From: Ptychodera flava
Taxonomy: Eukaryota; Hemichordata; Enteropneusta; Ptychoderidae
Length of the DNA stretch: 64,000 nt
Assembly: GCF_041260155.1 (NCBI RefSeq)
Contig: NC_091931.1
Span: forward strand, 29,012,541-29,076,540
Reading direction: 5' to 3'
Part shown: piece after piece, positions 1,296-37,800 of the stretch
Numbering within the stretch: position 1 is the first letter of the stretch
Layout of the letters: each line of letters starts with the position of its first letter
Notes under the pieces: generated by a model
What the model was told of the DNA's origin: nothing
The model's database searches: none
Seen by the model: only the letters and a program-made list of their open reading frames with translations
Translations under genes and position numbers: made by a program

Positions 1296-2861
1296 TTAAT
1301 TACATTTCAATTAAAGTAAACATGCATTGCTTATCAAGATTACGTCATAAAAAACAGCACATCTGTCACGTTATAAAGAATCTTCAGTTGGTTATCTTTA
1401 TCAGTATTTTCATCCTATAAACCAAGCACATTTTAACTCTCAACATTGCAAGTAAGTTCTGTTGAATAAGTTGAGCCTGTAGGTACTCAGAGAAAGCGCA
1501 CCGAAGAGACAAATGTTTGCAACCTAAGAAGTTCAAGGTCATCAAAAGCATTATAAGGAATCATGTAACACTCTGTAGCTCGAACTTTCAACCTTACATT
1601 TAGATACATAGACGATGTCATTTCATTGAATAACTCTGAATTCAGTAAATATCTCGCTATGATTTATCCTCCAGAATTGGAGATTAAAGAAACTACAGAA
1701 ACGGCCTCTTCTGCTTCATATCTGGACATTTTACTTGAATTTGACTCTAATGGTCACCTTTCTACTAGGCTATATGACGAGAGAGATGATTTCAACTTTA
1801 GTATAATCAATTTTCCACACCTCATCAGTAATATTCCACTCTCACCTGCTTATGGGGTATACATTTCCCAGCTTATTCGATATGCAAGAGCATGCAGTTC
1901 ATATGATGATTTTGTAGAGAGACATGGCCATCTCTCTTACAAACTGTTAAATCAAGGTTACACCAGAGCAAGACTTGTCTCTACATTCAAACGCTTTTTT
2001 GGCAGGTATCGCAAGCTGGTAGATAAATACAATATCTCTCTTCGACAAATGATCACTGATGGCATCGGTGACATGGGGCCTTAGTTAGTGACCACTACCT
2101 ATCTGACTTACAGATTGATATATGAGGGTGCCACAAGTGGGTGGGATGCGCTTACTATTTTCGAAACACCTGACATCACTTCTTGGTCTTTTGGCCAGAG
2201 GTCCATATATCTTTCTTTCATGAATTTGACTTTGTTTGTGTACCGTCTATTTACTGTCTGTTCTGTGCTGTTTTGTGTCTCTGTTTACAACTATTGTCTT
2301 ACAAATTCTGACCTAGTGTTATTGGATTATGGATTGGTATGATTGCGATTATTGCACTGTTTACACAGATTGCACAATTGCTATAAATAGAACATGAATC
2401 TTATAGCCCAGCTTTACCATAAAAACCCTATCACTTTGACCACTCTTTTAATTGACCACTCTATTTTTTTCCTCAAAAAGTAATTTTATTTTATCCTTAC
2501 TAAGTCGACCATAAATGGAAATTGGAACTTTCTCTATCTCTATTTATTTGACCAACCTATCATGACAAACTGTTATGAGCAATTTCTTTTAGATAACATA
2601 CAGAGAACAATACATGACGGTACAGAATATGTCAAAGTTGGGATTCAGGAAAGTTGCCTTTACATGTTTTAATCATCCAAGATGGTAAGCATTTCACTAT
2701 GAACTGTCAAAAAAGTTGAATTTTCTAATAGTTCTACACTAAAATTATATTGGCTTGTTGATTTCCTAATTAATTCAACTATTTAAAATCATATTAATTA
2801 CTTTTTCTGGGTGAATTGATAGGGTGTATACAGTACAAGATTTACAGACAATGCAAGTCAT
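1296..2861 (+). mobile_element. 0.8-kb interspersed repeat, interrupted by a retroelement fragment
   Basis: The stretches 1296-1572 and 2354-2861 align end to end with 62728-63490, at roughly 85-90% identity by eye. The right-hand copy lacks the 780 bases between them. The extra segment here (about 1573-2353) carries a reverse-transcriptase tail and its 3' untranslated region. The simplest reading is that a 5'-truncated retroelement inserted into a non-autonomous repeat; loss of the same segment from the other copy is the alternative. No clear terminal inverted repeat or target duplication of the 0.8-kb unit itself is visible, so its class is open. Confidence 0.6.
1571..2084 (+). pseudogene. 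Reverse transcriptase C-terminal fragment (Penelope-like or related non-LTR type)
   Basis: The frame reads into FRYIDDVISLNNS at 1603-1641, which is the catalytic YxDD box of a reverse-transcriptase palm. It continues in frame to a stop at 2082-2084. After the box come SASYLDILLEFDSNG, LYDERDDFNF and YGVYISQLIRYARACSSYDDF, a run I recognise from abundant retroelement polymerases of cnidarians, lancelets and other marine animals. The finger domain upstream is absent, so this is a 5'-truncated copy with its natural C-terminus. The exact clade cannot be settled without a phylogeny, and no endonuclease domain is visible. About 270 bases of apparent 3' untranslated sequence follow before the host repeat resumes. 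Confidence 0.75.
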
Positions 2862-2989
2862 AATCAGTTAAAACATCAATTACCGTCTAACATTGCATCA
2901 TTCCTATAAATAACACCTCCGCATGGAACAGCACAATCATAATCTGCTCATTCACACAGGCACTACTTGACTTTGAATGAATGACCTAC

Positions 2990-3220
2990 TACATTTCACC
3001 TGTGTACCAAATTTGAAAGCATGGCAAAAGTACCTCAAAATTTGCAAATTTTGCCATGAGTTCTCCGAGTCATCTTCATGTCACTCCTAGGAACCTGCAC
3101 ACCCAATTAGAAAGTAATGGTATACACAGTTTCAAAGAAGATTTTTTTAACCAAAACTGGCAAAAATTGCCTAAAAATATGAATATGCAAAGTTTGCCAT
3201 AATTTTGATGAATTCTATTT
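2990..3220 (+). repeat. Dispersed repeat, left half, interrupted by transposon
   Basis: The text runs 'ATTTGCAAATTTTGCCAT ... CCTAGGAACCTGCACACC ... GATTTTTTTAACCAAAA', the body of the repeat best seen at 62330-62715 and 63490-63895. The copy is interrupted at 3220 by the 6.4-kb transposon and resumes at 9608. Joining 3217-3220 to the text after 9607 restores the order seen in the uninterrupted copies. Confidence 0.65.
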
Positions 3221-3240
3221 CAGTCGCACAGATCGCCAAA
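3221..3240 (+). repeat. Left terminal inverted repeat
   Basis: CAGTCGCACAGATCGCCAAA, identical over 20 bases to the reverse complement of 9588-9607. A GGAA shortly inside both ends is the only further similarity. Flanked on the outside by ATTT. Confidence 0.88.
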
Positions 3241-3872
3241 AAAAGGAAGTATCATGAATATTAATTTATATGTCAAGGGTCGTCTATTGACCAATCAGAA
3301 CTGTGCGCAAACAATGTGCGCAGTGAACCGTCATCGATAACACATGGTTTTGACACGTATGATCACAGCATCAGAAGTTGCCGTAGTACCCTGTACAATT
3401 TCAACGTTCAGTGTGTATACTCGGTAAGTGTTTTTCCCAAGGATTCTAGATGTTTATTGTGCGCATTAAGCTAAGATAAGTAGTGTTATTCGATGTATTC
3501 GGCTATTGATGCGGAGAGTGTCTTGCTCACTTCGCTATCGCAGTATCGCGAGTTCAGAGCAGTACAGTACTGATACGCTAGCCTTGACAGCAAACGTCGT
3601 ACTAATAAGGGTTTACTTATTTTGAAGACGGTCTTCATCGATATCTCCACATTTCAAGAATATGCTTGATCCTCTCAGAGTTCTCCAGAAACATTTTTTC
3701 GGACATTATTGTTAATCGTGACCCTCAACATGCTCAAACTTGAGACAATTTGCGGAGTGATAGCTGTGAGGTGTCTGCAAGCCCTACAGTACTAGATCCG
3801 AGAGTCACGCCGTCAAAACATATCAAACATGAGTATTTTTGTCAGACTGAGACATTGCCAATACTCACAAAG

Positions 3873-4858
3873 ATGTATCGTGTATTTTTTGTCAGATTTA
3901 TGTCAATGATGGCCGAATTGGATGAACGTGTAACAATCAAAGTCCGTAGCACAATAAGTGGGTAAGTTATTTGAGCATGTCATCATACACTTGTCTTTTG
4001 AATTGTCAATCAGCGCCGCAGTTTATTGGTGTCGAGTTTACAATTTACAACCCTTTGCTTTCCTCCATCGTCAAACTATTCAGTTACTTTTTCGTCAAAA
4101 AAGTCACAAAAATAGCTTTGTGAAATTCGTGTAATTTTTGTAACACAATTGCTAGTATTTTCCTAATTTGTTGACACTCACTTAATGTACTTTGTTCAGG
4201 TATCACTTTTTCCACATTCGTCCCCATGTGGATGTGCCACTGGTTGTGAAGAAGGAGGACCACAACAAAAAAGATCCAAAGGCCATGTCAGTCACCATGC
4301 CAACACTAGATTCAATTCCAAGTTACCTTCACGATGCTGTCACCCGAGAGGCTGATAAGAGGTACCCCAAACCCCAAGTCATACACGATATAGCTGGCAA
4401 GCAAGTAGGCCGTGTACCAGCCAATCTTTGTGCTGCATTCAGGAGAATACTTGCAGGTGGCGAGGCCTCTATTACATGGTATGTACCTGGGCATATCTAT
4501 CATACAGTTGTCAGATCCAATTCAAAGATTGGCAATCAGCACTGCCTTGCTCATTCAAAACACTAGAGTTGTGATTCTGTTTTAGAGTTGATCTAAGAAA
4601 TTCTGAAATTTTGTTCATTTCTTTTATTGTGCTGTTTGTTTTCCCAGCTGCTACTTCTGGACTGTACAGCGAAGTCAAGTACCACCAGCCCAACAGAAGT
4701 ATCAACGTGGTCACAACTTTGACAGACGAGGAGGTGGAGCTGTTTGTACCTGTAGATATGATGTTGATATACCTGTGGCAAGACGGTGCACAGTATTGAA
4801 CATGCTGCAAGATACCATTGATAAGATGGAGGGTGATGACTATATTGAGAAGGAATAA
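3873..4858 (+). CDS. HIRAN-domain protein of the transposon (3 exons)
   Basis: Exons are 3873-3961, 4200-4478 and 4648-4858, joined at GTAAGT...CAG and GTATGT...CAG introns with matching phases. The product has about 192 residues (183 if translation starts at the ATG at 3900). The spliced text gives three HIRAN hallmarks. ISGYHFF opens the domain, PLVVKKEDHNKKDPKAMSV matches the L-x-V-x2-E-x2-N-x2-D-P-x-A block, and GKQVGRVPANL matches the G-x2-VG-x-[VI]-P block. An insert of about 30 residues rich in charged residues separates the last two. The C-terminus is basic, then acidic. HIRAN domains in Rad5/HLTF-type proteins bind DNA 3' ends, so a role in handling transposon ends is possible but inferred. 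The frame is unbroken, unlike its partner. A non-coding first exon may end at the GTAAGT at 3424. An AATAAA overlaps the stop codon. Confidence 0.78.
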
Positions 4859-4859
4859 A
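4854..4859 (+). terminator. Poly(A) signal overlapping the HIRAN stop codon
   Basis: AATAAA includes the TAA stop of the HIRAN gene at 4856-4858. A 3' untranslated region this short would suit a compact mobile element, although further AT-rich text downstream could supply another signal. Confidence 0.45.
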
Positions 4860-5204
4860 AAGACATAGCTGACAGTCATGCTATCAACAAACTTTTATTT
4901 CAGAACACTAAAGAAATTTATACTAGAATAGAACATGTTTTTTCAGTTTGACTATATAAATACATATATATTTATATATATATATATATAAATATTTATA
5001 TATAAGTATAAAATATTTGTGTTTACCCCTGTTAACTTGCTTTTATATAATCACTGATTGCACAAATTATCTTTTTGAAACTGGAACAATCATTGTTAAA
5101 ACGTTTTTGATTGGTGCTTCTAATTTTCAAATCACTTCTCGTAAAATACCTTATATATGATTAAACTGTAGAAAAAGAAACCACATCAAAATACTTGTAA
5201 AAAC

Positions 5205-5262
5205 TATACTATACTATACTATACTATACTATACTATACTATACTATACTATACTATACTAC
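5205..5262. repeat. (ACTAT)n pentanucleotide microsatellite
   Basis: About 12 copies of ACTAT in tandem, in the space between the two convergent transposon genes. A TA-rich tract also lies at 4960-5010. Confidence 0.95.
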
Positions 5263-5661
5263 TCCTGTCCTTTGCACACAAGGATCAGAATGACAACATG
5301 TTGTATTTGCAAATCCCTGACAGAAAACTTTAACTGGAATGTAAATTGGTTTTTGTTAAATGTTTCTTAAATTGATATGAATAAATATAATAAAGTCAAC
5401 ATCAGTTTTGTACTCTTATTGACAAGCAAAACCTAAAAAGTGAAAGATATGGCACTTCAGAAAAGGCAAAATAAATGTCCAGGAAATAAAACGGAACTTG
5501 AGTACTAAGTGTTTGACTGAATCTTGGAAAAAAGTACTGCTGAGAAAATTGTCCTATTTCACAGCCCGTGTATGACTGAACATCCTAGAACTTTTTGGGG
5601 TATGTTGTAGTGTCTTTTAACACCACCTTTCTACAAAAGACATGCTACATCAACATGAACA

Positions 5662-8600
5662 TTACATGGAGCAACTGTTCAATTCGAAATTTGCTAACTC
5701 GGTTTGGTAGCTATTTACATGCTCCCTGCATCTGTTCAAAAGTGACAGCAGTAAGTCCTTTCTCTTTGCTTGGAAGAGTTGTTTCTGAAGATCAACCTGT
5801 ACTTCATTTGGCAATACAGCGAGAAGGATATTTATTTCTTGTTTCAACTGATCATTTGTTTTATTTTCATCCTTTGAGTTATTTATTTCCTCCTCCTCTG
5901 TTATACAAATTGGGTTAACATGAGGCATGCGTTCAGGTATTTTTTTTGGACGAGGTAATCAGTGATTATCTTGAACCGCCTAGACTTTGCAGTGCTTTCG
6001 AAGTGAAGCAATTCAACTGATAGATTGTTGCCAGCAATTGAAACAAGTTTCCTATTAGGAGTTGGCATCAGATATTTGCTTCTTCGCAGCAATACTCTAA
6101 ATTCCTGCAAATCATATTCATAACTGGGACGATATCTAGGCCGAGACTCATAATTATTGAGGGAAAGCGTTTCAAAAATTACCATTCTTAGCTTGTTTAA
6201 GCTTTCATAATTAGTAATTACACGTTCCCAAAGCTCTGAATTTGCTGAATGTCCAACAATCCATTTCTTCACATTTTGTTATACTCTTCCAAGGCAAAGT
6301 CTAGCCCTTGGTGCTGGTCTGCCCTCCTGACCTGGATACAGATTCATACAATGGTAAGACCGATGCCAATTCTGGTGGGTAACATAACCTATCGAATTCA
6401 TCCAATGCTTCAAGAACAGCATATTTAGGATGTCTACGTCCATTGAAAATTGAAGAAGCTATTTGGCGACCAACCCTCATCAAAACAGAGTCATTGTTTC
6501 TGATGCCTTTGCGAAACATTAAAATGGCCATCATATGATTGAGCATGACCTCTGTGATAAAACAATAAGTTTCATCATTTTGTTTTTGATGAGTTACCCA
6601 CAGCATGAAGTTGGCATATGTGTATTCACTTACAGTGCTATCTCTTACAAATGAGTACAGTAACTCATCCCATACACCGTCGTGAAACTTGAGAAAATTG
6701 CCAAATGCTATATGATGGTCACTGCAGTTTTTTTAAAAAAGGAGTGCTTTCTCCGTCTCGAAGCCTTGCGTTTCACCAAAATCCTTGTACAAGATAGGCC
6801 AGTACATTTCTTCAAATGATTTCAGAATGTTCATCTCCTCATGGCCAGGGCCAGTTCTTAATACAACCCAATCAAATTCACCCTTTCCATTATAAATGAC
6901 TTTCTTCACCAAACCCCATGGCAACCCATCACATCTCACAAGAACCCACTCACCTTTACCATTAGCAGTATATTGTTTGACCCCAGCATGTTTTCCTATG
7001 GCTTGTAAAACTGCCTTAACAGCATCAATGCTAGCAGGATTGACAAACACAGGTTCAACTAGCTGGATTGCAGCTTTTCTCACTTCATCTTATCATTTAC
7101 CTCTTGTTTAACCCCACAACTTGTTTTATCATACCCAGAGTATGTATGGAATTTCAGCTGGGTGGGATGTGATTTCTTTCTGCTCTCTTTGATAATTCTT
7201 GTGCTTATATGATCATCATTTCTTGCCATAGCTTTTATTTCTTTGGCTATCCAAATGTCACAGGGAATACACTTCTTTGTCTTTTTATTATATTTTCTGT
7301 TGCACCTAGGACAAATTTTGAACTCTTCATTCTCAAGTTGCCTTGTTACTTTTATGGCACATTGTCTTTACCATCATTTTTATCAGCCAAGGCAATCGTT
7401 AACCGAGACTGAAATGATGATTTCATTTCCCTGTGTAAAATACTTTGCATTTCTTCACTTAACTCTTTCATTTGATGTATCATTTCTGTTGAAGGGATTT
7501 TCCAGTTTGACGGCTTAAGGTTTGCATTTTCCTGAAGTGTTGAATTAGGGTCAAGCTGACATACAATTATATTTGTCAGGATATCAAGAGTTTGTTTATT
7601 ACCCATGCGTGATAACCATGTTTTCATTTGTCTTTGTTCATTGTCAAATGCGTACTCAATTAATCCATCAGGTGCAGGTGGACAAGAACTTTTCATTGTT
7701 TTCAACCAATTTCCTAAAGTATCACAGCCTGCCCCTGCTGAGCAGTGCCCAATAATATTTGTTGATAAGTCACTTTTTGTTATTGAGTGATTGACAGCTT
7801 GCACAGCAAAGGTAAAATTAGAGACATAATTCAAGTTTCGAGCAGCATACAAATTGTCTATAGCCTGGAGACGGAGAACTTCAGTTTTTCTTTTAAGTCT
7901 GTCAGTAGATGTGCTCATTCCCAAACCCCTTAGACTGTTGCTTTGGCTGTCAATGACTCAACAAATGCTCTAACAACTTTGTTTCTTTTTTGCATTTCAT
8001 CACTAACAATTAAAGCACATAAGTTGTCAACATTTCGCCTGTCTTTGCTATTAACAGACTTTACAGTTTCCTCTAATATGTTCCCATTTTCTATGTCGGC
8101 AATTGTTTTAACTGCAGCAATACGTTGTTCCTGAGTACTATAAAGTGTTTGTTTTTCAAGATGGAACTTGGTATTTTCAGAGCGTAAGTTAGCTACTTCA
8201 TCCCTGAGCTCATCATTCTCTTCATGGAGGTCATCAATGTCTTTCAGCAGGTATTGAAGTTGGTCCTTGAGGTCTCTTACTTGGTGTTCAGTCTCAGAAC
8301 ACTCCTGACAATATTTTGCTTGAAAAACATCACCTGAATAACGTTTTTTGGAAGCGTCATCAAAATTGAGCTGTTTTCGAGATGCACCTGTGTGGACTTT
8401 TGGAGGAGGTGGACTGGTAGTTGGACTGTTGCAAGTTTTATTTGGGCTTACCCCTTTCCTCTTAGTGGCTGTTGTTTGTCCTCTCTGCATCAGTGGCATG
8501 CAAGAAAACGGAAAATTTATTCCATAAAATAAATTTGTAACTGGGTAAGGCAGTCTACTTACATATGCTGCGGTAATATTTAGCATATTTATAGAAATCA

Positions 8601-9134
8601 AACATTTCGTCAATAAATGTAGAAACTGCAGAAAAAAAACAATGTCCATAACAAACCATGGATGCTCTGTTGCTCTGTTTTGGTAAACGTTAATCATAAT
8701 GTTTGATGTAGAAAACCAATATCTGTATGAGAGTTCATGTTTCGAAACGAAGAGAAAACACAATAATGTTCATTAAATTTTGATCACGGTCATGTATTTT
8801 CACGTTTAAGCGGTAAAGCTTTTATAGGTATACTGCGAACACAATCCGTGGGAACAATATTCGGTTTACTTAATAGCCACGTTCACGTTTACTTCCGCAT
8901 TTGAGGCTTACCTTCGATTGTGTATCGGGGTCAACGACGGTACAAGTCACAGTGTTTTGCGTGAACTCCCGTTTACGAGGAGCTTTATTCACACAATTGC
9001 GGCAAATGTTGGTGCCATGGGCACCCAGCCCCTTAAAACCGTCCATAATTGACTTTGGCACATAGCGTGCAAACGCCTTGGTTTCCTGAGCAGCGTCCGT
9101 CCCGGACCACTGTGAATGGAGCGGGTTTGCACAT
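5662..9134 (-). pseudogene. Putative transposase: coiled coil, zinc ribbon and CDG/GHxEMN core, decayed
   Basis: Exon 1 is about 9134-8912 (donor GTAAGC), and exon 2 begins at 8484 after a CAG acceptor, in phase. The N-terminus has paired CxxC motifs (CTLC, CRNC). Next come a proline/serine linker and a coiled coil (HEENDELRDEVANLRSEN, about 8280-8170). An N-terminal globular region follows, then a zinc ribbon (KICPRCNRKYNKKTKKCIPC, near 7310-7240). The core reads WVLVRCDGLPWGL, FDWVVLRTGPGHEEMN and CSDHH, then RRHPKYAVLEALDEFD. The spacing of an Asp after a beta-strand followed by GHxEMN recalls an RNase H-fold transposase, which is inference. I recognise the family as a large, unnamed expansion in corals, lancelets and other marine animals. 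This copy has a stop near 6733 and frame changes near 9050, 7925, 7345, 7095, 6300, 6275 and 5940, mostly at A or T runs. It is therefore either decayed or affected by homopolymer errors. Confidence 0.72.
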
Positions 9135-9587
9135 TATTTTACAAATCGGCCATGCTTTCCCTTGTTCAGACCTCGCGTACACTGTCCAACTCCAGCTGCA
9201 GCTACCAACATAACCAAAACTACTACAACAAGATGTCCTTTCAGCATATCTGGAGGGATTGCAGATGTGTCACCATCATCATCATCCTGGAATGAGGGGG
9301 CTGGGGCCATGGCAAGACCGGCGAGAACGATTGGCTGTTACCAGAAAACGGCACGGTGGATCTCCAAACGGATCGGCAGATCGGTAGAACGCCTATCCAC
9401 AAGTCTGTGTACAAAAGCCTGGACGTTTCAACCAATCAGATTTTGTTTAACAGAACTTAAATCTGGGGTATGTGTATTTTCGATAGGACAAATATCTGCT
9501 GGTCAAAAAGCAGTGATGTGATTGGTTAGTAGTTTTTACTGGCACGTACTTGCCGCCCGAGGGCGTATTTTACTATCGCTTTCCATA

Positions 9588-9607
9588 TTTGGCGATCTGT
9601 GCGACTG
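9588..9607 (-). repeat. Right terminal inverted repeat
   Basis: Reverse complement of the left end, 20 of 20 bases, ending at 9607 and followed by ATTT. The 450 bases inward to the start of the minus-strand gene contain no other coding signal and probably act as its promoter. Confidence 0.88.
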
Positions 9608-10110
9608 ATTTTGAGTTATCACAAGGCACCTGCACGCCAAATTTAAAGCGATCTGACCATTGGTTTAAGAGAAAAAGATTTTTTACTAAAATGGCAAAAA
9701 AAAAAGAAAAAAATCATTAAAACTATAAGCATCAAATATTGACATCAAATCTGTATGTTTAAATGAGTTGGCCTAAGGTACCTAAAAATTTAATATGACA
9801 ATGATCAGATGAGTAATTCCTGAGTTATTGATTTTTGACCATTTTCGCCGGTTTTTCTACCTCATTCGCATATTTATGAGACTAAAAAGTTCATTTTAAA
9901 AACGGCACATCTAGACCATACGGCATCACTACACCAAAAATCAGCTTAATACGTGCAGCGGTTGGTGAGTTTTTGCGTTGGACGGACAGACATCCATACA
10001 TACATACATAAATATAGACAGACATCTCACATACAGTAGACTTTTTTCAACCATATAACCTCCCAATTGCCATATATGTATGGCAAATGGGAGCTAATAA
10101 ATCGATATAA
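9608..10110 (+). repeat. Dispersed repeat, right half with terminal hairpin
   Basis: The copy begun at about 2990 continues here: TGAGTTATC, a 'CACCTGCACGCC' block, 'GATTTTTTACTAAAATGG', then GGACGGACAGACATCC and a CATA microsatellite near 9965-10020. It ends in a palindrome, CCCAATTGCCATATATG followed by its complement and GGGAGCTAATAA, near 10069-10100. Every better copy in the window has this same order of body, GACGGACAGACA tract and closing hairpin. Confidence 0.65.
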
Positions 10111-10705: not shown

Positions 10706-12556
10706 GGGATGGACCATTAGACCTTGGGAGGGGGTGGTCACAATGAAATTGTGAAATTTTTTTTTTTACGATTGTAAATTTCTGAAATTTTTTTTTTCCA
10801 ATTGAGATTAGCTGTGCAATTTTTTTTTTCAGAGTAAATTTTCAGATTTATAATTTTTTTTAGTTCGTCGCTGTCAGAAGATAAAGAGGGCAAAGATGTG
10901 GTGCCAAGCACCACATGCAGCAATGCAAGCGGTCACGGGGGCAGGTCAGGAGAGGGGTGTCCCCCTCCTGCCGTTGGAGCTTCTGAAAAATAGAGATAAA
11001 ATGGTGTTATTTGGTGCACTTGGGGAGTATTTTTGCGGGGAGTGGTCAGGAGGGGTGTACCCCTCCTGCCATTGGAGCTTTTGAAAAATAAAGATTAAAA
11101 TGGTGTTATTTGGTGGCACTTGGAGAGTATTTTTGCGGGAGGTGGTCAGGAGGGGGTGTCCCCCTCCTACTGTTGGAGCTTTTGGAAAATAGAGATTAAA
11201 ATGGTGTTATTTGGTGGCACTTGGGGAGTATTTTTGCAGGGGAGGTCAGGAGGGGGGTGTCCCCCCTCCTGCTGTTGGAGCTTTTGAAAAATAGAGATAA
11301 AAATGGTGTTATTTGGTGGCACTTTGGGAGCATTTTTTTCGGATTACACATCTTCCTCTGAAACATGGTCTTCTTGCTCCTCAGTAGCTTCCTATAGTTT
11401 GAAAATTGACTATTTTGGTTTCCTGGCTTCCCTTCCTACTGCGTGGTGAAATGGCTTCATTCACCCCACCAAACATCATGCATATCTCATGATTTACAAT
11501 TGATTTTGACAAGCTGAGAAGCTAAAATAAGCTAAATAATATAGTTAAATTTGCATATTTGTGTTTTTAGAGCAATTGTTGCCCTTTTTTGATCAAAACA
11601 TCTATTTCTCTGTAGCAGCATGTCTAAATGATTGGATGTGTATAGATGTGTTGAGATTTCAATATTTGTCTTTTTAGGGCAATTTATGCCATTCATGGTC
11701 AAAAAATCTGTATTCTCTGAAAGGGCTTGTCCAATTTCTTTGAAATTTGCTACACAAAAACGATTATTCATGCAGATTTATTCAGTATTTGCTATCGAGA
11801 AACTTTCAAAGTTCAACCCCTTTTGTGTGTTTTTGTGTTGGGATTTGTTGGATAGATGGCATTCTACGTAGTGTATTGTTGAATGTTAAAACATGTGTTG
11901 CTGTTGTTTTTTGAGGCTGTTTTTGAGAAAAAAGAATTGAAAATGCCTTTTAAAAGCAAAATAATACATAATGACTTGATATGTGTTTTATCATTATTGA
12001 CGTGTTTCTACTTGTTCACCCATTCTTGCATTCATCATTGCAATAAAATGCTGTGAAAAAAATGAAACTGATGTGGCCTGCATCTGTTTACCTTGATCTT
12101 AAAAGGCAAATACAACTTTCTGTCTTGACAACCATACCATAGTTTCAATGTTTTACCTAGTGTACCTGCTTGGTTTGTACGCAGGAAACAAGTAGAAAAC
12201 AGGTTCTATAATTTCATAATTTTCAAGTGATCAGAATACAAAAGTCCTGAAAAGATAAGATAATCACAACTTCCAGTATAAGGGATACAGTCACTCTAAA
12301 TGTATAAATTAAAATTAAAAATGTTCCGGGAGGATGTACTAAAAAATACAGAAAGTTGCTTTCTGTCGGTAAAATCTAAAAAAAATTCAAAATTTTAAAG
12401 ACTTTTGCAGATTTTTTTTTTACACCTTTGTCTTCTTATTTATTTTTTTTTTATTTTGCAAACTAGTTTGAAGATTTTTTTTCCTAACTTTCTGCTCTGA
12501 AATTTTTTTTTTTCTGTTTTTGACCACCCCCCTCCCAAGATCTAATGGTCCGTCCC
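10706..12556. mobile_element. PIF/Harbinger-like non-autonomous element nested in the TTAA element
   Basis: The ends are GGGATGGACCATTAGACC and the inverse GGGACGGACCATTAGATC, each followed by a TGGGAGGGGGTGGTCA-type stretch. TTA stands on both sides (10703-10705 and 12557-12559). A 3-bp TTA/TAA target duplication with GGG-starting TIRs is the PIF/Harbinger signature. No transposase frame is present. A second, truncated copy in opposite orientation lies at 30735-31796. The interior carries a roughly 100-bp minisatellite and AT-rich sequence. Confidence 0.7.
10930..11340 (+). repeat. ~100-bp minisatellite, about 4 units
   Basis: Units contain GGTCAGGAGGGG, GTGTCCCCCTCCTGC, TTGGAGCTTTTGAAAAATA and TGGTGTTATTTGGTGGCACT. 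The GGAGCTT block recurs near 10976, 11073, 11176 and 11277, giving a period of about 100. The related copy at 31490-31560 has only one unit, so the array expanded after the two copies separated. Confidence 0.85.
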
Positions 12557-23789: not shown

Positions 23790-26700
23790 TTATAGGAGAA
23801 CTTGTACATTTTGGGTATACAAATGATTAACAATACTATGATAAGCCTCTACACCACTGGTCTGCCCATGATGTGACATCTTCCGTACATCAGTTACAAA
23901 CATGGTCTTGGTAAGGAGTTCTACGGCTTTGACCTTCACTTCAGTATCTATAAATAAAATATGCAAGCTCAAAGAGTTATCAAAATGTCAGACAAAGGCT
24001 CATCATGTGTAATGGATCTGGCTACTCTCTTTCTTTTTGTTGGGTATGGGGATTGCAGATGTAAGCCACTCTGCACACCAGTGGATTTATGACGGGGTCT
24101 CATGCTGCATTTTTCACATGGCGGAGTGTATTTCTGTAGAAAAAAAGGAAAATAAATCAATACATTTCTAAAGGAATTTCATATTAAATTTCACAAACAA
24201 TGCTATGAAGTTGTAGCAGACTATTGGAAAATTACACAGATCAGTAATGAATGAAACCATGGTCGGTTGAAACATATGTGCCTGAATTTGATATCATGAT
24301 GTCTTGCTGTTGTGAGTCTACTTGCCTTTGTCAGTTGACAAAGGATGTCATTTCGCTTGATTGCAATTGTTCTGCAGGCTGACTGATGACAGTTGGTGAT
24401 TCATCAGTTTGGATTGGCCATGGCTCTGCACTCGCTGCTTCTTGTAATGAACTGACAGCAACAGCCACCAATCTCTTCCGTTCACGTTTAGCAGCTGCAG
24501 CTCGGGGAGTGGGTACGCTGAGGTGAGGAGATGGACGAAGTTGAATTGTGGGTACGGCATCTGCAACGAGCATCAGTCTGGTTTATAAAAGAAAAAATGT
24601 TACAGCCAGTGACCCAGATTATTGGTGAACTTTGTGAACTACAAAAAAAGAGAGGGAAATAAAAACCTCACAAAGTCATAAAAAAACAATTAGACAAGTA
24701 ATAACATTGATAAGAATAGTCCTTCCACAACACGTCTCAAGTGCATTTGAGTACAACGAACACTAAAATAACATTTCAAATTTTTCTAAAACAAAAAATA
24801 GTTAAAATAGTTGAACTGAAATCACAATGCTGTTGAATAATGTTTTCACTTTTCTAAGAAATATAATTTGGTTAGCATCAGAAAAAAAGTTTTTCAGAAG
24901 CAAGTAATAAGGTAGTGAAGGTTAATTTCTTCAGTTGTTTTGTAGGACCAGAAAGCTGAACTTTGAGAAAACATGCCCTGTTACACGAAATGTGTACAGA
25001 TTTAATAAGAACCACGTCCTATTTGTAAAATCGCTTTCACCTTACATGTATCAATTTGCTCTACTCAGGCTGTATCTTGTGAAGCTGTGTATTGTCCAGT
25101 CAGAAAACAAAAGGTCATGTACAAACCTCTGTAACGATTATGATAACAATGTGCCAGAAATGTTTGAAAACATTCCTGGGATTAGCACGTGAACAGTCAG
25201 CATTTTGACGCAAACCTGAGTAGGGGCATGCAGGAAGGGAGCTGTGATATCGTGCAGCGGTACTGTGGCGTCACAGGCGCTCCTTAGCTGGGTAGTCTGC
25301 TAAATAGATCGATTTTCGGCTCAATCTATCGATCCCGTAGTCGATATGCACACCACTGCAACCTAAATGGCGGACATATCGACTACGGGATCGATAGATC
25401 GAGCCGAAAATCGTTCTATTTAGCAGATTACTCAGTTATTAAAAGAGCGCCTGTGTGTGACGTCTATCGAACGCGCTAAGGCATATGTACACATGTCTAT
25501 ATGGCACAAGACCACTAATTAATTTCCCATAGGCCACCACAGTAGCGTTTAGCTCGATTTTCCTATTTTAAAACATTCAGCGGCACGAATCCTCTTAACA
25601 GGTGTTAGGTCAATGTCAGCTTGACTACTGATTAATTTTTCGTGTGGGCAAGTCCACGGAAATTTTGAGATAGCGATGAAAATAGCGCCCTCAGTGGTGT
25701 TTTTGACAAAATTCAGGCTTATTGTTATGATTTCTATGGAAGACCGGTCACGACATGCGACATGCGACCTGCGACTTCAAAACTGCGACCTGCGTCCTGC
25801 GAGTTTGAAACATGCGACCTGCGACTTCGGCATTTAGACCTAGGTGTAACCTGCGACTTCACAACAGCGACCTGCGTTTTGTCAAACTGCGACCTGCGAC
25901 TTCACAACTGCGACATGCGACAACAACACGTAACGTTTCATGGTGTTTTCCTCAGTATTAGATTGGAGGCGTCTTGCGTGAACTTTAATCCTTTGAGCGC
26001 CAAAGTCTATTTTTGTCCCCTTTATATAATAAACCCCTGTCAATTTTTCTCCAATTTTTGCAAAAATTTTGGGAAAAACCTGTAGCCAATGAAATGTGAT
26101 GTCGATTTGGTCCCAAATTATCAAAAAATTACAGAAAATTCATACAATTGGTAAAATTTTGCACTAAAATTTTGGTGGGAGAAAATTACAGCGCTCAAAG
26201 GGTAAAACGTGGAAAGGAGATTTAACGTTCAACATCGATCAATTAATAAGCCATTGCTTTCGCTTTGGTAAATCGTTCACCAAGTCTGGCAAAACTCAAT
26301 TCATGTACACACCAGTTCACTCATTTTCATCTGGAGAGATAATTTTATGACGGAAATGTTGACAGTACGTGTTAATGCATGGAAAATAATATGCTACGTG
26401 ATCTAGGCATTTATATGTTTATATTATAATTTCAAATTATTTTAGATATTCTTCGTCTGCCTTACCTCGCTTCTTTCCTTATGTTATCGACAAACCTTTT
26501 GATTTTTAGATATCTCTGGTATTTATCCTCATTTCACTGTGGTATAACCATCTAGCTGTCTGTTTAATTCATTGTCCCCCTGTATCATAACTGCGTCAGT
26601 GTCATTGCAAACATTCGAATTTTCAGTTATTGTCGTTCATTTTCTAACATTTCCAGTTTTGTTACAATTCTCCAGTGATTGATCATCGGATGTTGCCATC

Positions 26701-29449
26701 TTTTCGTCTAATTTCATTTTTACTTTTCGTCAAAAAATCGAATTGATCCAACTTTTGTTCAGTTGGAAAAATAAAAATATTCTTACTGGTTAACTTCGGA
26801 CTACATTTGTCTACACAAATAACATATGCAAAGTAAAGCAGTTAAAATAATACTGATATTGATAGAAGTGCAAACATATTTGCTAACCATGAATAGCCAG
26901 TGACCGACTTTCTTTATAGATAACGCGAGTTAAAACTGTAAAACAGGACATAATTAAACCCTCTACAATCCTACTTTCAGTCTTTATGCCTAATATGTAC
27001 ATACTATAATATGTACATATTATTTTTTGTGTGTATATAATATTTTAGATCATGTAGGCAGAAAAGTTCCAGAAACTATTAAACACTGATGTAGACGTTT
27101 AAAACCCTATTGCTATTGCATTATTTCAGATCGGTTTGCCTTTCGTAAGAAGGAAAATAAATTTGTGCTCTTCGTTTGTGGAATTCTCTACCGTCACAGC
27201 TTCATGCACTTCTATCGCTGGTTGAATTCTTTCGCTGGCCGATTTTTGCGTAGGCCAGCGGTGCGAAAATAATGCTCTGGTCGCGAGAATGCGGTAAACC
27301 GGCTGTTTTAATATAGTGCAATGGTGTCCCTCGTGTTTTTCAGGCTCGTGTTCAGAGCAATGGTGCGAACAAATCAAGACTGATATCGCAGTTTGACAAA
27401 CACGCAGGACGCAGGTCGCTGTTGTGAAGTCGCAGGTTAGGCCTACACCTTGGTCTAAATGCCGAAGTCGCAGGTCGTATGTTTCAAACTCGCAGGACGC
27501 AGGTCGCAGTTTTGAAGTCGCAGGTCGCATGTCGCATGTCGTGACCGGTCTTCCATAGATTTCTATTAGCCCTAGAACTCCTCATATTACCACCAAATAC
27601 TTCAGCCATTATTCACAACAGTCTGCATTTTGATTCAGGCAGAAAAATATCTTTACAAAAATTATTGACGTTAAAGTTCAAACTAAACAAGCATCCATAC
27701 AGATATCAAAACTTCAAGGTCTGCACTATTTTTCTTCCGAACTATAACGAACCCGGAAGTGAATTCAGTTCAGTTCAGTTCAGTTTATTTCGCTAGAAAT
27801 ATAAACTTACATTCACTCAAAAGACACATGGAAAAAAAAATAAAGATAGAGAAATTGGTACAGAAATTAGTGGGCTTGTGCCTTATGGGGTGCATAGGCG
27901 CAGCGCGGAATAGAACATAGGTGACTGTGTTCGTAATACAGGGGCATTAGCTCTGCGTGGCATTTGTCAAATCATACGCGTCCACATTGAGGATACCGCG
28001 ACATTGGCACTGTAGGCATTATCGGATAATATTATCTAAGTTATCTAAGTTAGGCAGATGCCCGACATGCTGTTTTATCGGGTAATATCCGATAAAATCG
28101 ATAATATCGTCTAAAATCTAAGTAAGAGTCTAAAATTAGACGAGTGGGGAAGAGGCAGATGCCTGACATGCTCTTTTATCGGATAATATATTGGCCACTT
28201 CCCCACCTGCCTAATATTAGACTCTAACTTAGATTTTAGACGATATTATCGATTTTATCGGATATTATCCGATAAAACAGCATGTCGGGCATCAGCCATA
28301 CCTCACTCGTCTAATATTAGACACTAACATCTAAGTTAGAGTCTAATATTAGACGAGTGAGGAAGAGGCAGATGCCGACATGCTGTTTTATCGGATAATA
28401 TCCGATAAAATCGATAATATCGTCTAAAATCTAAGTTAGAGTCTAATATTAGACGATTGGGGAAGAGGCATATGCCCGACATGCAGTTTTATCGGATATT
28501 ATCGGATAAAATCGATAATATCATCTAACTTCTAAGTTAGAGTCTAATATTAGAAGCAGACGGGTGGAAAATTCTAAAAACGCTGTTTTATCGGATAAAA
28601 TCGATAATATTATCCCTATTAGATCACTTTGGTCTCATGTTCCTGGAACTCTCTAACTTAGACATTTGTGACGATATTATCCGATAATAAAGAAAAAACC
28701 TATGTCGCGCCTTCATGTCCACATTGGAGGCGCATAGCCGTAAAATAAACAGCCTTGCCAGGCATGCCAAGCTAGGGCTCATACGTTTTTTCAATGAAAC
28801 ATTCTATCGCTCACGTGAATGCAACTGTGGATTTCTGATACTTTTTCACAGATGAATTTCTTCGGCAATGTGAGCTTAGGTCTGCAGTAATTGTATAACT
28901 TATACACTGAATTCGTCGTCAAGTGTGAACGGTATGACATCGTTCGCAGCGAAAAGTACATTGGGCGATGTTGCGCATGCAACACTAGCTCTGCGTGACA
29001 GGGCCATATGTTACTGGGTCTACGGTGTTACCGAAGTTATACGGCCACCCACTGAGGCCGTGTAACGCAGAGCTGATGCAAAACATGGTTATTGGCCACA
29101 TAGAAATGTTTGGAAAGCAATCACAGCTGACGTTCGTTGTCTTCAGTTACGTAGAACTCCCGGGGTAGAACTACACCACCAAAATAATTTAGCAAATCAC
29201 TTTTTTATTACTAATCTTATAAATTAGGGCTTACCTTCTGGAAAATCCGTGATTGTATTCCATGCGGTTGGCAAAACAATCGTCAGTGAAGTGTTTGTAG
29301 CAAAGCACGCTCGTGGCTACAGGAGTAAAATTAACCCGCTTTGCTTTCACAAACTTGGTCCATTTTCTCGCCAGATCTTCATCCTTCGGCCATAGAAACA
29401 ATTTTGATACTGAATGAGAACAATGCATAGCGACACAACGTTTAGGCAT
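23790..29449 (-). CDS. THAP-domain gene with transposase-like C-terminus (transposon-derived, incomplete)
   Basis: Exon 1 (29449-29235, donor GTAAGC) encodes a THAP zinc finger. It begins MPKRCVAMHC (C5, C10), then W20, P21, W30 and LCYKHF (C50, H53), with FTDDCF following. Exon 2 starts at 24577 after CCAG. The phase-correct join reads SRRLMLVADAVPTIQL, restoring the AVPT[I] box that closes THAP domains. Downstream, acceptors at 24133 and 23947 open exons reading KYTPPCEKC...RHKSTGVQSG and KMSHHGQTSGVEAYHSIVNH. The second matches the QTSxLExxHSxxNH block of THAP-bearing transposase-like proteins of marine invertebrates. Exon 2 meets a stop near 24331, and the frame after 23790 is also lost soon after an FSYxGM-like remnant. 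Full function is therefore doubtful. THAP domains bind DNA. The 4.7-kb first intron is packed with later insertions. Confidence 0.68.
25272..25455. mobile_element. Small foldback element (184 bp)
   Basis: Two arms of about 75 bases, running from CACAGGCGCTC through GATCCCGTAGTCGATAT, are inverted around a roughly 30-base centre. The blocks GATTTTCGGCTC and GTAGTCGATAT are nearly identical between arms. Lies in the THAP gene intron. Confidence 0.75.
25735..27557. mobile_element. 1.8-kb TIR element with GCGACCTGCGACTTC subterminal repeats
   Basis: TATGGAAGACCGGTCACG begins at 25735 and its inverse ends at 27557. GATTTC flanks both sides (25729-25734 and 27558-27563), suggesting a 6-bp target duplication. 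Each end carries about 170 bases of a degenerate tandem motif around TGCGACCTGCGACTTC, in mirror orientation. The interior is AT-rich, has no transposase, and contains a piggyBac-like MITE. The superfamily is uncertain; short TSDs of about 6 bp occur in several. Confidence 0.75.
25989..26212 (+). mobile_element. piggyBac-like MITE, copy 1
   Basis: Starts after TTAA (25985-25988) with TCCTTTGAGCGCC and ends GCGCTCAAAGGG before a mutated TTAA. Members share GCCAAAGTC, TGTAGCCAATGAAATG and a GGTGGGAAAAATTACAGC end. The TTAA target and CCCTTTG termini fit the piggyBac superfamily. Nested in the 25735-27557 element. Confidence 0.75.
27765..27860 (-). repeat. Possible retroposon 3' tail (reverse orientation)
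   Basis: On the minus strand the text reads AATAAACTGAACTGAACTGAAC, here shortened: a polyadenylation-like AATAAA followed by a CTGAA pentamer tail. Such tails are common at the 3' ends of LINE/SINE copies. No coding part is attached. Confidence 0.3.
28018..28688. mobile_element. Cluster of alternating inverted units (foldback satellite)
   Basis: The region is built from units of about 120-170 bases carrying CTGTTTTATCGGATAATAT, AAATCGATAATATCGTCTA, TCTAAGTTAGAGTCTAATA and GAGGCAGATGCC. At least four units lie in alternating orientation (forward near 28050, reverse near 28200, forward near 28330 and 28470). The whole is bounded by ATTATCGGATAAT-type ends. It has no coding capacity. Confidence 0.7.
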
Positions 29450-30734: not shown

Positions 30735-31796
30735 CATTTTTTTCACAGCATTTTGTTGCAATGATGAATGCAAGAATGGGTGAACAAGTAGAAACACGTC
30801 AATAATGATAAAACAACATATCAAGTCATTATGTATTATTTTGCTTTTAAAAGGCATTTTCAATTCTTTTTTCTCAAAAAACAGCCTCAAAAAACAACAG
30901 CAACACATGTTTTAACATTCAACAATACACTAAGTAGAATGCCATCTATCCAACAAATCCCAACACAGAAACACACAAAAGGGTTGAACTTTGAAAGTTT
31001 CTCGATAGCAAATACTGAATAAATCTGCATGAATAATCGTTTTTGTGTAGCAAATTTCAAAGAAATTGGACAAGCCCTTTCAGAGAATACAGATTTTTTG
31101 ACCATAATGGCATAAATTGCCCTAAAAAGACAAATATTGAAATTTTAATACATCTATACACATCCAATCAATTTGGACATGCTGCTACAGATAAATAGAT
31201 GTTTGATCAAAAAAAGGCAACAATTGCTCTAAAAACACAAATATGCAAATTTAACTATATTATTTAGCTTATTTTAGCTTCTCAGCTTGTCAAAATCAAT
31301 TGTAAATCATGAGATATGCATGATGTTTGGTGGGGTGAATGTAGGCATTTCACCACGCAGTAGAAAGGGAAGCCAGGAAACCAAAATAGTCAATTTTCAA
31401 AACTATAGGAAGCTACTGAGGAGCAAGAAGACCATGTTTCAGAGGAAGATGTGTAATCCGAAAAAAATGCTCCCAAAGTGCCACCAAATAACACCATTTT
31501 TATCTCTATTTTTCAAAAGCTCCAACAGCAGCAGGGGGACACCCCTCTCCTGACCTCCCCCCCTGTGACCGCTTGCGTGGCCGCTTGTGGTGCTTGGCAC
31601 CACATCTTTGCCCTCTTTATCTTCAGACAGCGACGAACTAAACAAAAATTTATAAATCTGAAAATTTACTCTGAAAAAAAAATTGCACAGCTAATCTCAA
31701 TTGGAAAAAAAAATTTCAGAAATTTACAACTGTAAAAATATTTTTTTCACAATTTCATTGTGACCACCCCCCTCCCAAGGTCTAATGGTCCATCCC
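30735..31796 (-). mobile_element. PIF/Harbinger-like element, second copy, truncated
   Basis: Reverse-orientation relative of 10706-12556. It ends at 31796 with GGTCCATCCC followed by TTA. At the other side homology stops at 30735, so about 500 bases of the far end are missing. It contains one minisatellite unit where the first copy has four. Confidence 0.75.
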
Positions 31797-31799
31797 TTA

Positions 31800-34290: not shown

Positions 34291-34815
34291 TCTTCTATAC
34301 TGAAACACGGGAGCAGTTTCAGTTCATATCTGGTTACTGTATGAGTTTTGTACGGGCGCGTACAAAATTCAGAGGCAAGCTCAATATCATGCATTGCGAT
34401 TTCATCTATGACACTTAAATACATCTTACTAATAGTGAGATCCAGTTTGTTCCGTATAGTATTTGATCCGTATACACAGACGAACAGAGCAGACTGATAT
34501 ACAGACGAACACTGTTGTTTTATCGCAGGGACCGTAGAGTTAGAGTGATACATAGCGTAATACACAGCCCTGCCACGCAGAGCTAGAGTGATACAGTAAC
34601 CTTGAATCCTTGCTGCGCAGTTCCGTGCGGCCGTTGTGTGCGTGTGACACGAGACCCCTTGTTTGCTCAGTTCAACGAGGCGTGTACCTTTGTGTCCTGC
34701 CAAAGGTCAAAACATCAGCTGCCCGTGGTTTGTCCCGTGGTTAGGTCACACAGCCTGTATCTGCTGGTTTCTCGGTCTCCGGACACTTTAATGACACCAT
34801 GCGCACAGTGTAGAC

Positions 34816-37800
34816 ATGACCAGCCGAGACACTGCGGGTTCTTCTCTGTACAAGGACTACGTGGACGTTCTGGCGAAAGTCAGGCAGTTTTACGGTCGGC
34901 TTGAATTTGACGCGAGGAAAGGTACCAGCGATTTCCGTGAGTTGCAGATGATACTGGGGTCATCCAGTAATGGCGATGGTCCGATTGAGTCCACGCTGGA
35001 GCAAGTCTACAAAAGTTTTGCACCGCCGCACAGACTCAAGCTTGACTTCAGGTACTCGAGCAAGGAAGTCCTTCTGAAACAATTGCGAGACCTTCTGGCT
35101 TACGAGAAACGCGACCCGAAAATGGAAGACAAACTGAAAGTCCTCGTGGACAAGATACTGCAACTCAGGTACAAGGACGGGTTTTGCATATCGGGGCCGA
35201 ACGCCCTCGCAGATGCTTTACCAACGAAGATACCGGGCTATGTCCACGATATGTTGTTAAACCACCAGTTGGATATAACTTGGGAGACGGAGTCGGGCTT
35301 TCCGTCGCATAGCGAGATCTTCCGTAATCCGCCAGTGTTGGCCTGGAAACTCCGAAAGGCGCTGACGATTTACCAAATATTCAAAGAGAGGGGTCAAATT
35401 CACGACCACTACCAACTCGAAAACCTGTGTCCCCCGATTTACGCCAAAACGATGGCCTGGCGATCTTGGTACGAATGGACATTCGTAAACAGTGGGCAGG
35501 AACTACCCGAACTGCGCACAGAAATCGGAGAGTTGCCCCATTGGATCGACAAGGAAATCCAGGATTTCCTCAATGCAGAGTCACAGGAGGAGTGCTACGT
35601 CCACGGAAACTTTGCCGTGTACTGCCTTGTTTTGAAGGATGATTTGTACGGGAAGAGGAGGAGCGCTGGCAAAGACAGTAAGAAAGGGCAAAGGGAATTA
35701 CAGGTGAGGGAACCAACGACGGTGCCAATGAGAATAAGTAATTTTCAAGAGAAAAGCAGACAAGGGTTAAGGGGATATGTTGCCAATACGACAACTTTCT
35801 TCTCAGGTATCGACCATTAGATATTTCGAGGGAGTCGTCGCAAAGTGGAAAAATCTGCCCACTGGGACACCTTCAGCAGTTGTACCTCCTCATAGTCCAG
35901 TCAATCTACGAGATTTTGGCACCTAACCCACCACAATTGCAACAGAATTTTTTTCTTCAGAATGCATTTCAGAGAGGTACCCAGAACAACATATTAAAGT
36001 TTACTCGAATCCACCTTGGGGAAATATGTCTAATTTGCATAAATCAAATATGGCTGCCAGCCATCCAACAAAATAGCATAATTGGCCATATATCACATGT
36101 TAAACAAGCTTTTTTCAGTGATTTCAAAGTCTGACACTAGTTATTTGGCCCAGGGAATCATTTTGGAGGTATAATGTTTCATATAGGCACTTCATTAATT
36201 TGCATAATTTCAATATGGCGGCCAACATTCTTACAAAAGACATTTTCGGTCATATACTACATATTAAACAAACTCTTTCAGTAATTTTTAAGTTAAAAGT
36301 ATATTTCTTTGGTATGGACAAACGTTTTTCGAGATGCAATGATTTGAAAAGGTAATTTGTTAATTTGCATAAATCCAATATGGTGGCCAACATACCTACA
36401 AAAGACATTTTCTGTCATATACCACGTATTAACCCTTTGGGCGCCAAGGTCTATTTTTGTCTACTTTATAAGATGTACCACAGTCATTTTTTCTGCCTTT
36501 TGCCAAAATTTTGATAAAAAAATGTAGCTGATGAAAAATGATATCCATCTGGTCAAAAATTATGAAAAAAACGTACAGAAAAGTTCGCAGAAATTGGTAA
36601 AATATTGCATAAAATTTTTGTGTAAAAAATTACAGCAGTCAAAGGGTTAAACAAGCCATTTCTGTGATTTCAAAGTTAAAAGTATATTTCTTTGGCATGG
36701 ACAAACAATTTTCGAGATGCAATGATTTGCATACTTAGGTATTTCGTTAATTTGCATAAATCCAATAGGGTTGCCAACATACATACAAAAGACATTTTCT
36801 GTCATATACCACGTATTAACCCTTTGGGCGCCAAAGTCTATTATTGTCAACTATATAAAATGTATCACAGTCAATTTTTCTGCTTTTTGCCAAAATTTTG
36901 ATAACAAAATGTAGCTGCTGGAAAATGATATCCATTTGGTCAAAAATTATGAAAAAACGTACAGAAAAATTCACAGAAATTGGTAAAATATTGCATTAAT
37001 TTTTTTTGTGTAAATAATTACAGCAGTCCAAGGGTTAAACAAGCTATTTCTGTGATTTCAAAGTTAAAAGTATATTTCTTTGGCATGGACAAATGATTTT
37101 TGAGGTGCAATGATTTGCCTTGGCTCTTCGTTAATTTGCATAAATCCAATAGGGCGGCCAATATACCTACAAAAGACATTTTCTGTCATATATCATGTAT
37201 TGAACAATCTATTTCAGCCATCTTGAAATTTAAATATATTTCTTGAGCATGAATAAACACCTTTTGCGGTTCAATGTTTGTAAAAGACACTTTGATAAGT
37301 TTCAGAAATTAAATATGGCTGCCAAATTAATGACCAAATAGTTTCTTATATAAATAAGGTTCTGTAGAGATTTTAGCAACCGGAATATCAAAAAAAAAAT
37401 GTTAAGAGGGCACTGCACCAAATGCAGCGTATTTTGCTCAAAATAATTTTTTTGCAAATATTCATCCAATTTGATTAATTTGTTAACCCAAGATTAAAAA
37501 TTGGTTAGGCTCACCTTTTAGCTTGGCAAGCAGTCGTAAGTTGCATAATATAGAAGGGGTAATTTATGCAAATTTATGCAAATCGACCGATTTTCTGCTT
37601 CTCTTCTATCTGAATTTCGAGAATTGCAAAGAATATAACTCTAGTCTGGCTGGGTCAAATTTTCTGAAATTTTCACATTGTTTTTTAAACGCTATATAAC
37701 AGAACAACTATTTTGTTTTGCAATAAAATTCTGATGCAAAAAATGTCAGACTCTTAAAAACTTGATCAACACATAAACTCACAAAAAATTGAAAATTGCA

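Follow-up and report, generated by a model that had tools for sequence, protein, structure and literature searches.

The 6,387 bp element described here is a real insertion of a terminal inverted repeat (TIR) DNA transposon (class II), situated in the 64,000-nucleotide stretch of DNA that was analysed as a whole (the window). Our best explanation, to which we assign a probability of roughly 0.6, is that a formerly autonomous TIR transposon entered a middle repeat with a 4 bp duplication of ATTT, that its long minus-strand gene encodes the transposase, and that its small plus-strand gene encodes a HIRAN-like partner. The analysis covers the one copy of the element within this 64-kb window.

Element ends and target site duplication

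The features that define the insertion are as follows.

3217–3220, unstranded: left copy of the target site duplication, ATTT (read directly and from the empty-site alignment)
3221–3240, plus strand: left 20-bp terminal inverted repeat (inverted-repeat comparison)
9588–9607, minus strand: right 20-bp terminal inverted repeat (inverted-repeat comparison)
9608–9611, unstranded: right copy of the target site duplication, ATTT (read directly and from the empty-site alignment)
62322–62475, plus strand: paralogous repeat without the insertion (empty site), 72% (joined-flank alignment)
63493–63649, plus strand: second paralogous repeat without the insertion, 72% (joined-flank alignment)
55371–55820, plus strand: more diverged repeat across the junction, about 66%, 7-bp join preferred (joined-flank alignment)

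The two ends form a perfect TIR (20 of 20 positions identical), whereas 100 shuffles gave a chance expectation of 0 for an inverted repeat of 20 bp. Both termini begin with CAG, and the identity between the two ends breaks off at base 20. ATTT is read directly on either side. No further copy of the 20-bp TIR was present in the 64-kb window with up to 3 mismatches allowed, and the sole similarity between the element and the rest of the window (DNA, E ≤0.01) is an AT-rich repeat near 4950–5025. The G+C content is 0.385 inside the element, compared with 0.379 and 0.376 in its surroundings.

The flanks of the element are part of a middle repeat that has other copies in the window. From 400 bases of either flank, with a single ATTT between them, we built an empty-site construct and aligned it to the remainder of the window. 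Three paralogues span the flank junction without the insertion, and because the joined flanks match these paralogues across the junction, the element is firmly shown to be an insertion, most likely with a 4-bp duplication. The join was tested by taking 0 to 9 bases off the right flank and rescoring the alignment each time. For the repeats at 62322–62475 and 63493–63649, the top score was reached with exactly 4 bp removed (131, versus 124 at 3 and 128 at 5), while the diverged paralogue at 55371–55820 scored best at 7 bp (85, versus 77 at 4 bp). The two repeats that favour 4 bp resemble each other and are thus not independent support for this length. A 4 bp duplication of ATTT, supported by two of the three paralogues, is the most likely.

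An earlier note on this DNA had described inverted ends perfect over 20 bp, ATTT on both sides, and a TIR transposon with a 4-bp target duplication. The first two are borne out by these data, and the third is strengthened by the empty-site paralogues, which are new evidence (best join 4 bp in two of three).

Gene content and layout

Within the element we located the following features.

3291–3295, plus strand: CCAAT, possible promoter element, 70 bp from the left end (motif search)
3873–3961, plus strand: HIRAN-like gene exon 1, with the first ATG of the model (gene model)
4200–4478, plus strand: HIRAN-like gene exon 2, carrying the HIRAN match (gene model and Pfam)
4648–4858, plus strand: HIRAN-like gene exon 3 with the stop; protein of 192 aa (gene model)
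5662–5958, minus strand: large gene open piece, C-terminal end (open frames, Markov test)
5904–6278, minus strand: large gene open piece, after the core (open frames, Markov test)
6304–6732, minus strand: open piece with CSDHH and the region that follows, preceded by an in-frame stop at 6733–6735 (open frames, motifs)
6736–7089, minus strand: open piece with the CDG and GHEEMN motifs (open frames, motifs)
7083–7367, minus strand: open piece with CPRC...CIPC, a possible zinc knuckle that may bind zinc (open frames, Markov test)
7355–7957, minus strand: open piece between the coiled coil and the zinc motif (open frames, Markov test)
7933–8484, minus strand: large gene second exon, coiled-coil-like (acceptor; weak coiled-coil-type Pfam matches, none over cutoff)
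8912–9133, minus strand: large gene upstream exon piece with ICRNC, 5' start provisional (splice-site reading)
9521–9525, minus strand: CCAAT, possible promoter element, 82 bp from the right end (motif search)

Facing inward, the two genes together take up about 82% of the element, from 3873 to at least 9133, a layout that resembles that of an autonomous element. Between the left end and the start of the HIRAN-like gene model there are 652 bp; the large gene begins no further inside than 9133, which puts its start at most 475 bp from the right end. CCAAT lies near both ends in matching orientations. The motif is common (71 and 75 per strand across the window) and is found three additional times in the end regions examined, so the terminal CCAAT carries no weight on its own. 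An AT-rich repeat (4953–5010) and an ACTAT microsatellite of 11.8 perfect copies (5203–5261) separate the 3' ends of the convergent genes.

A coding origin of the minus-strand gene is clear. Counting only stop-free runs of 90 aa or longer in the region 5662–8769, we obtained 1059 residues for the minus strand (about 95 of them upstream of 8484, the inferred acceptor) and 101 for the plus strand; in 300 Markov samples this count averaged 51 and never went above 337. One clean intron is evident, with an exon ending at 8912 and the next exon starting at 8484 in the same phase. The frame then changes six times (near 7930–7957, 7352–7367, 7080–7089, 6278–6304 (twice), and 5904–5958), and an in-frame TAA (6733–6735) lies between GHEEMN and SDHH. 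Because the open pieces at the frame changes overlap or sit within 25 bases of each other, these changes are not introns. The in-frame stop falls at a run of 7 T then 6 A, and one frame change falls at 8 T (5940–5947), so placed that both could be assembly errors; the remaining frame changes are away from long homopolymers. The broken frames make the activity of this copy doubtful, and it is probably dead, or at least no longer autonomous, unless the assembly has indel errors.

Two convergent spliced genes had been proposed for the element. The convergent content was found, together with an intact three-exon gene on the plus strand and, in the minus-strand gene, the CDG, GHEEMN and SDHH motifs and one intron. 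However, the latter gene is broken by the six frame changes and the stop, which had gone unreported, and two working genes are not confirmed.

The large protein as candidate transposase

In order, the large protein presents ICRNC, a coiled-coil-like stretch, CPRC...CIPC, and the CDG...GHEEMN...SDHH core. It is the evident transposase candidate, since no open frame inside the element besides the two genes exceeds 143 aa, and by position and content a transposase is the best reading and a probable one. Its place in the element and the order of its acidic motifs suggest that it may be an RNase H-type nuclease.

No piece of the large protein gave a Pfam match that reached its cutoff, and the coiled-coil-like region gave weak matches to many coiled-coil families, none above cutoff. 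The Pfam transposase and integrase models matched neither the pieces nor the X-joined protein, which from the CPRC motif onward gave nothing at E ≤10, and no helicase or nuclease domain, including XPG, was found by Pfam in any piece. The GHxEMN motif resembles that of DUF6589 (PF20231); this identity was rejected, as the X-joined protein did not match the family at E ≤10. NCBIfam gave no match at E ≤1, and Rfam gave none across the window. Of the solved structures in the Protein Data Bank, six matched the core at E ≤5, and the best of these, topoisomerase 4 subunit B (E 0.046), was not used. Residues 65–96 of the core (32 residues, in the minus-strand piece 6736–7089) match phrog_6644, a PHROGs family of unknown function, with an E of 0.00072. 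This match is unexplained and probably due to chance.

Relatives of the large protein numbered 0 in viral contigs and prokaryotic genome contigs, and tblastn with the 262-aa core found nothing at E ≤1 in either plasmids or phages. These searches covered viral, prokaryotic, plasmid and phage sequences and no eukaryotic ones, so absence from them says little. A looser phage search with a 118-aa piece (E ≤10) returned 48 records, and 19 of the best 20 of these 48 fell at dihydrofolate reductase genes, with a best E of 1, which we attribute to chance. A gapped CDG/GHxEM DNA pattern occurred in two viral contigs, where the second motif was out of frame in one and a stop lay between the motifs in the other, again chance. 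Two viral contigs contained the first 17 bases of the TIR, with no inverted partner in the parts examined. The HIRAN and DUF6589 profiles each matched 0 of 2 viral records; among 14 control genomes, HIRAN was found in 1 and DUF6589 in 0.

The HIRAN-like protein

The plus-strand model, built from sequence alone, comprises three exons with GT-AG introns and an unbroken single frame of 192 aa. The open frame of exon 2 matched the Pfam HIRAN family (PF08797) with an E of 0.015 and 15.6 bits (curated cutoff 24.7), a partial match across profile positions 26–78 of 96, while the full 192-aa protein gave an E of 0.054 and 13.8 bits. The match is split by an insert, and a 97-aa construct with both ends trimmed and a 24-aa linker removed reached an E of 0.00029 and 21.0 bits. 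In nine shuffles of the exon-2 frame, HIRAN was never matched, and other families appeared at E ≤0.15 in two (best 0.024). Little can be concluded from the E-value by itself: in the Pfam scan that gave the exon-2 match, another piece hit the unrelated POTRA2_Toc75 with comparable strength (E 0.014). No solved structure matched the protein at E ≤1, and its relatives in viral contigs numbered 0.

The earlier note had named HIRAN before any search was made, and for this reason we consider the protein probably, though not certainly, HIRAN-like. The searches support that identification weakly: HIRAN is the sole Pfam match at E ≤1 for both the exon-2 frame and the full protein, but every score lies below the cutoff of 24.7.

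Surroundings of the element

To the left of the element, the stretches 1285–1551 and 2351–2864 have diverged copies (86–88%) at 62717–63493. The same flank holds a 171-aa open frame (1569–2081) with a YIDDV stretch, which resembles a Penelope-type reverse transcriptase; the frame had no Pfam match at E ≤0.1 and no solved structure below E 0.7. A 101-bp tandem array of four copies occupies 10936–11337, with related inverted sequence about 20 kb off at 31193–31797. A protein-like stretch occurs twice, in opposite orientations and some 1.5 kb apart, together with CGACCTG-rich arrays (25753–25921 and 27469–27539), and a 341-aa open frame at 34795–35817 had no Pfam match at E ≤0.1. Further along, two minus-strand frames match the AtuA ferredoxin-like domain (53043–53441, E 2.8e-7, over the cutoff; 58674–59003, E 1.2e-4, below it) and are perhaps exons of one host gene; between them, a 226-bp unit is repeated in tandem in 5.9 copies (53815–55135).

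Proposed mechanism and alternative explanations

If the long protein, with its zinc motifs, coiled coil and CDG...GHEEMN...SDHH core, is the transposase, it would bind the 20-bp ends and then cleave and rejoin DNA through RNase H-type chemistry, the metal being coordinated by the D of CDG together with later acidic residues. In HLTF and Rad5, the HIRAN domain binds DNA ends, which it protects or hands to host repair. By analogy, the HIRAN-like protein may bind the DNA ends that arise in excision or insertion and protect them or pass them to host repair, and would thereby act as an accessory factor, the partner of the transposase.

A further proposal, which we make tentatively and judge rather unlikely, is that the element represents an unnamed superfamily of animal cut-and-paste transposons, in which a CDG...GHxEMN...SDHH catalytic protein without a Pfam transposase match would be accompanied by its own HIRAN end-managing protein. 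The earlier note assigns the minus-strand protein to a large family of uncharacterised proteins of marine invertebrates; if this proposal were true, the spread of the superfamily would explain that family. Should these termini and both genes recur together in other copies, a group of invertebrate genes so far uncharacterised would have to be reassigned to transposons, and HIRAN, a repair-type end-binding domain, would have become a dedicated transposition partner.

Three other explanations bear on the reading of the element as a formerly autonomous transposon. The genes may both be captured passengers of a non-autonomous element that was moved by another transposase, as the break in the long gene, the single copy seen in the window and the putative nature of the nuclease would allow; yet the two genes fill about 82% of the element and face inward, and the plus-strand model is still intact, and we think this improbable. 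The long gene may instead be intact, its breaks being indel errors of a long-read assembly, and the element possibly a working one. The homopolymers at the in-frame stop and at one frame change agree with this, as do the 20/20 identity of the ends and the unbroken HIRAN gene model, but the other frame changes are not at long homopolymers. We consider this account unlikely, if less so than the capture of passengers.

The third explanation, that the element belongs to a superfamily already named, with a transposase too diverged for Pfam or absent from it, is a serious possibility, although one we would place well short of even odds. Academ is the first suspect, and the 4-bp duplication fits that group; the second is the hAT/P/MuDR/Kolobok/Dada group. 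Accessory DNA-processing proteins are described for Kolobok lineages (PMC9587614) and a helicase for AcademH (PMC10799480), and Academ is described as amplified in bivalves (PMC10294476). In addition, SDHH is preceded by C, and the resulting CSDH would fit C/DxxH, the signature between the second D and the last E in the hAT/P/MuDR/Kolobok/Dada group (PMC9587614, PMC10045372). Shuffles of the 261-aa core contain CxxH in 11% and C/DxxH in 41% of cases. Against a named superfamily stand the absence of a helicase or nuclease domain match from every piece and of any Pfam transposase match, with Academ compared by description only. If the element does prove to be Academ or a member of another named group, it would bring a new gene pairing to that group.

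Comparison with known systems

Literature searches for HIRAN with Repbase, or with transposons and invertebrates, returned no such pairing. The combination of 'HIRAN domain' with 'transposable element' returned only work on viral elements in a marine basin; among the matches listed, 'HIRAN domain' with 'transposons' gave plant TDP1 and CoCoNuT restriction systems, and HIRAN with transposase gave polymorphic toxins. DUF6589 was not found in the literature searched, and the available parts of the main texts of PMC12730594 and PMC12220107 mention neither HIRAN nor Academ. Within the limits of these searches, the results agree with the earlier note, which knew of no named superfamily with such a pair of genes.

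The likeness to the HIRAN of HLTF and Rad5 (PF08797) consists in the partial profile match of the exon-2 frame. Here, in contrast, the domain would form a small stand-alone protein that has no other Pfam match and scores below the cutoff.

Among transposon groups, Sola and Chapaev make 4-bp duplications; Ginger has TGT ends and Chapaev CAC ends. In PMC10045372, 4-bp duplications are described for Ginger1 and part of IS481EU, and TNT/TGT ends for IS481EU. The element has the 4-bp duplication in common with Ginger1, IS481EU, Sola and Chapaev, but differs in that no Pfam transposase or integrase model was matched, and in its CAG ends, which are unlike the TNT/TGT of IS481EU, the TGT of Ginger and the CAC of Chapaev.

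With Kolobok, the element shares the character of an animal TIR transposon with a duplication of about 4 bp and a second protein beside the transposase (PMC9587614). That source describes lineages with accessory proteins (KolX, KolobokP, KolobokD, KolobokE and KolobokH), and HIRAN is not among the accessories in the part available. It gives canonical Kolobok as TTAA-specific with 5'-RR termini, in contrast to the ATTT target and the CAG ends of the present element; for KolobokP it gives duplications of 3–5 bp and long terminal direct repeats of about 450 or 660 bp (PMC9587614). Canonical Kolobok and piggyBac are ruled against by the duplication of ATTT rather than TTAA. KolobokP was rejected as well, since no such long direct repeats stand among the best 20 of 28 repeat families of 2800–10000, the longest of these 20 being 35 nt.

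Academ is an animal group with target site duplications of 3–4 bp and lineages that carry extra DNA-processing domains; AcademX carries an XPG nuclease. The element is like Academ in its short duplication and in pairing with an accessory DNA-processing domain, a role held in AcademH by a helicase (PMC10799480). It differs from AcademH and AcademX, in a comparison made by description only, in that neither a helicase nor an XPG domain was matched. Academ remains the most serious named candidate.
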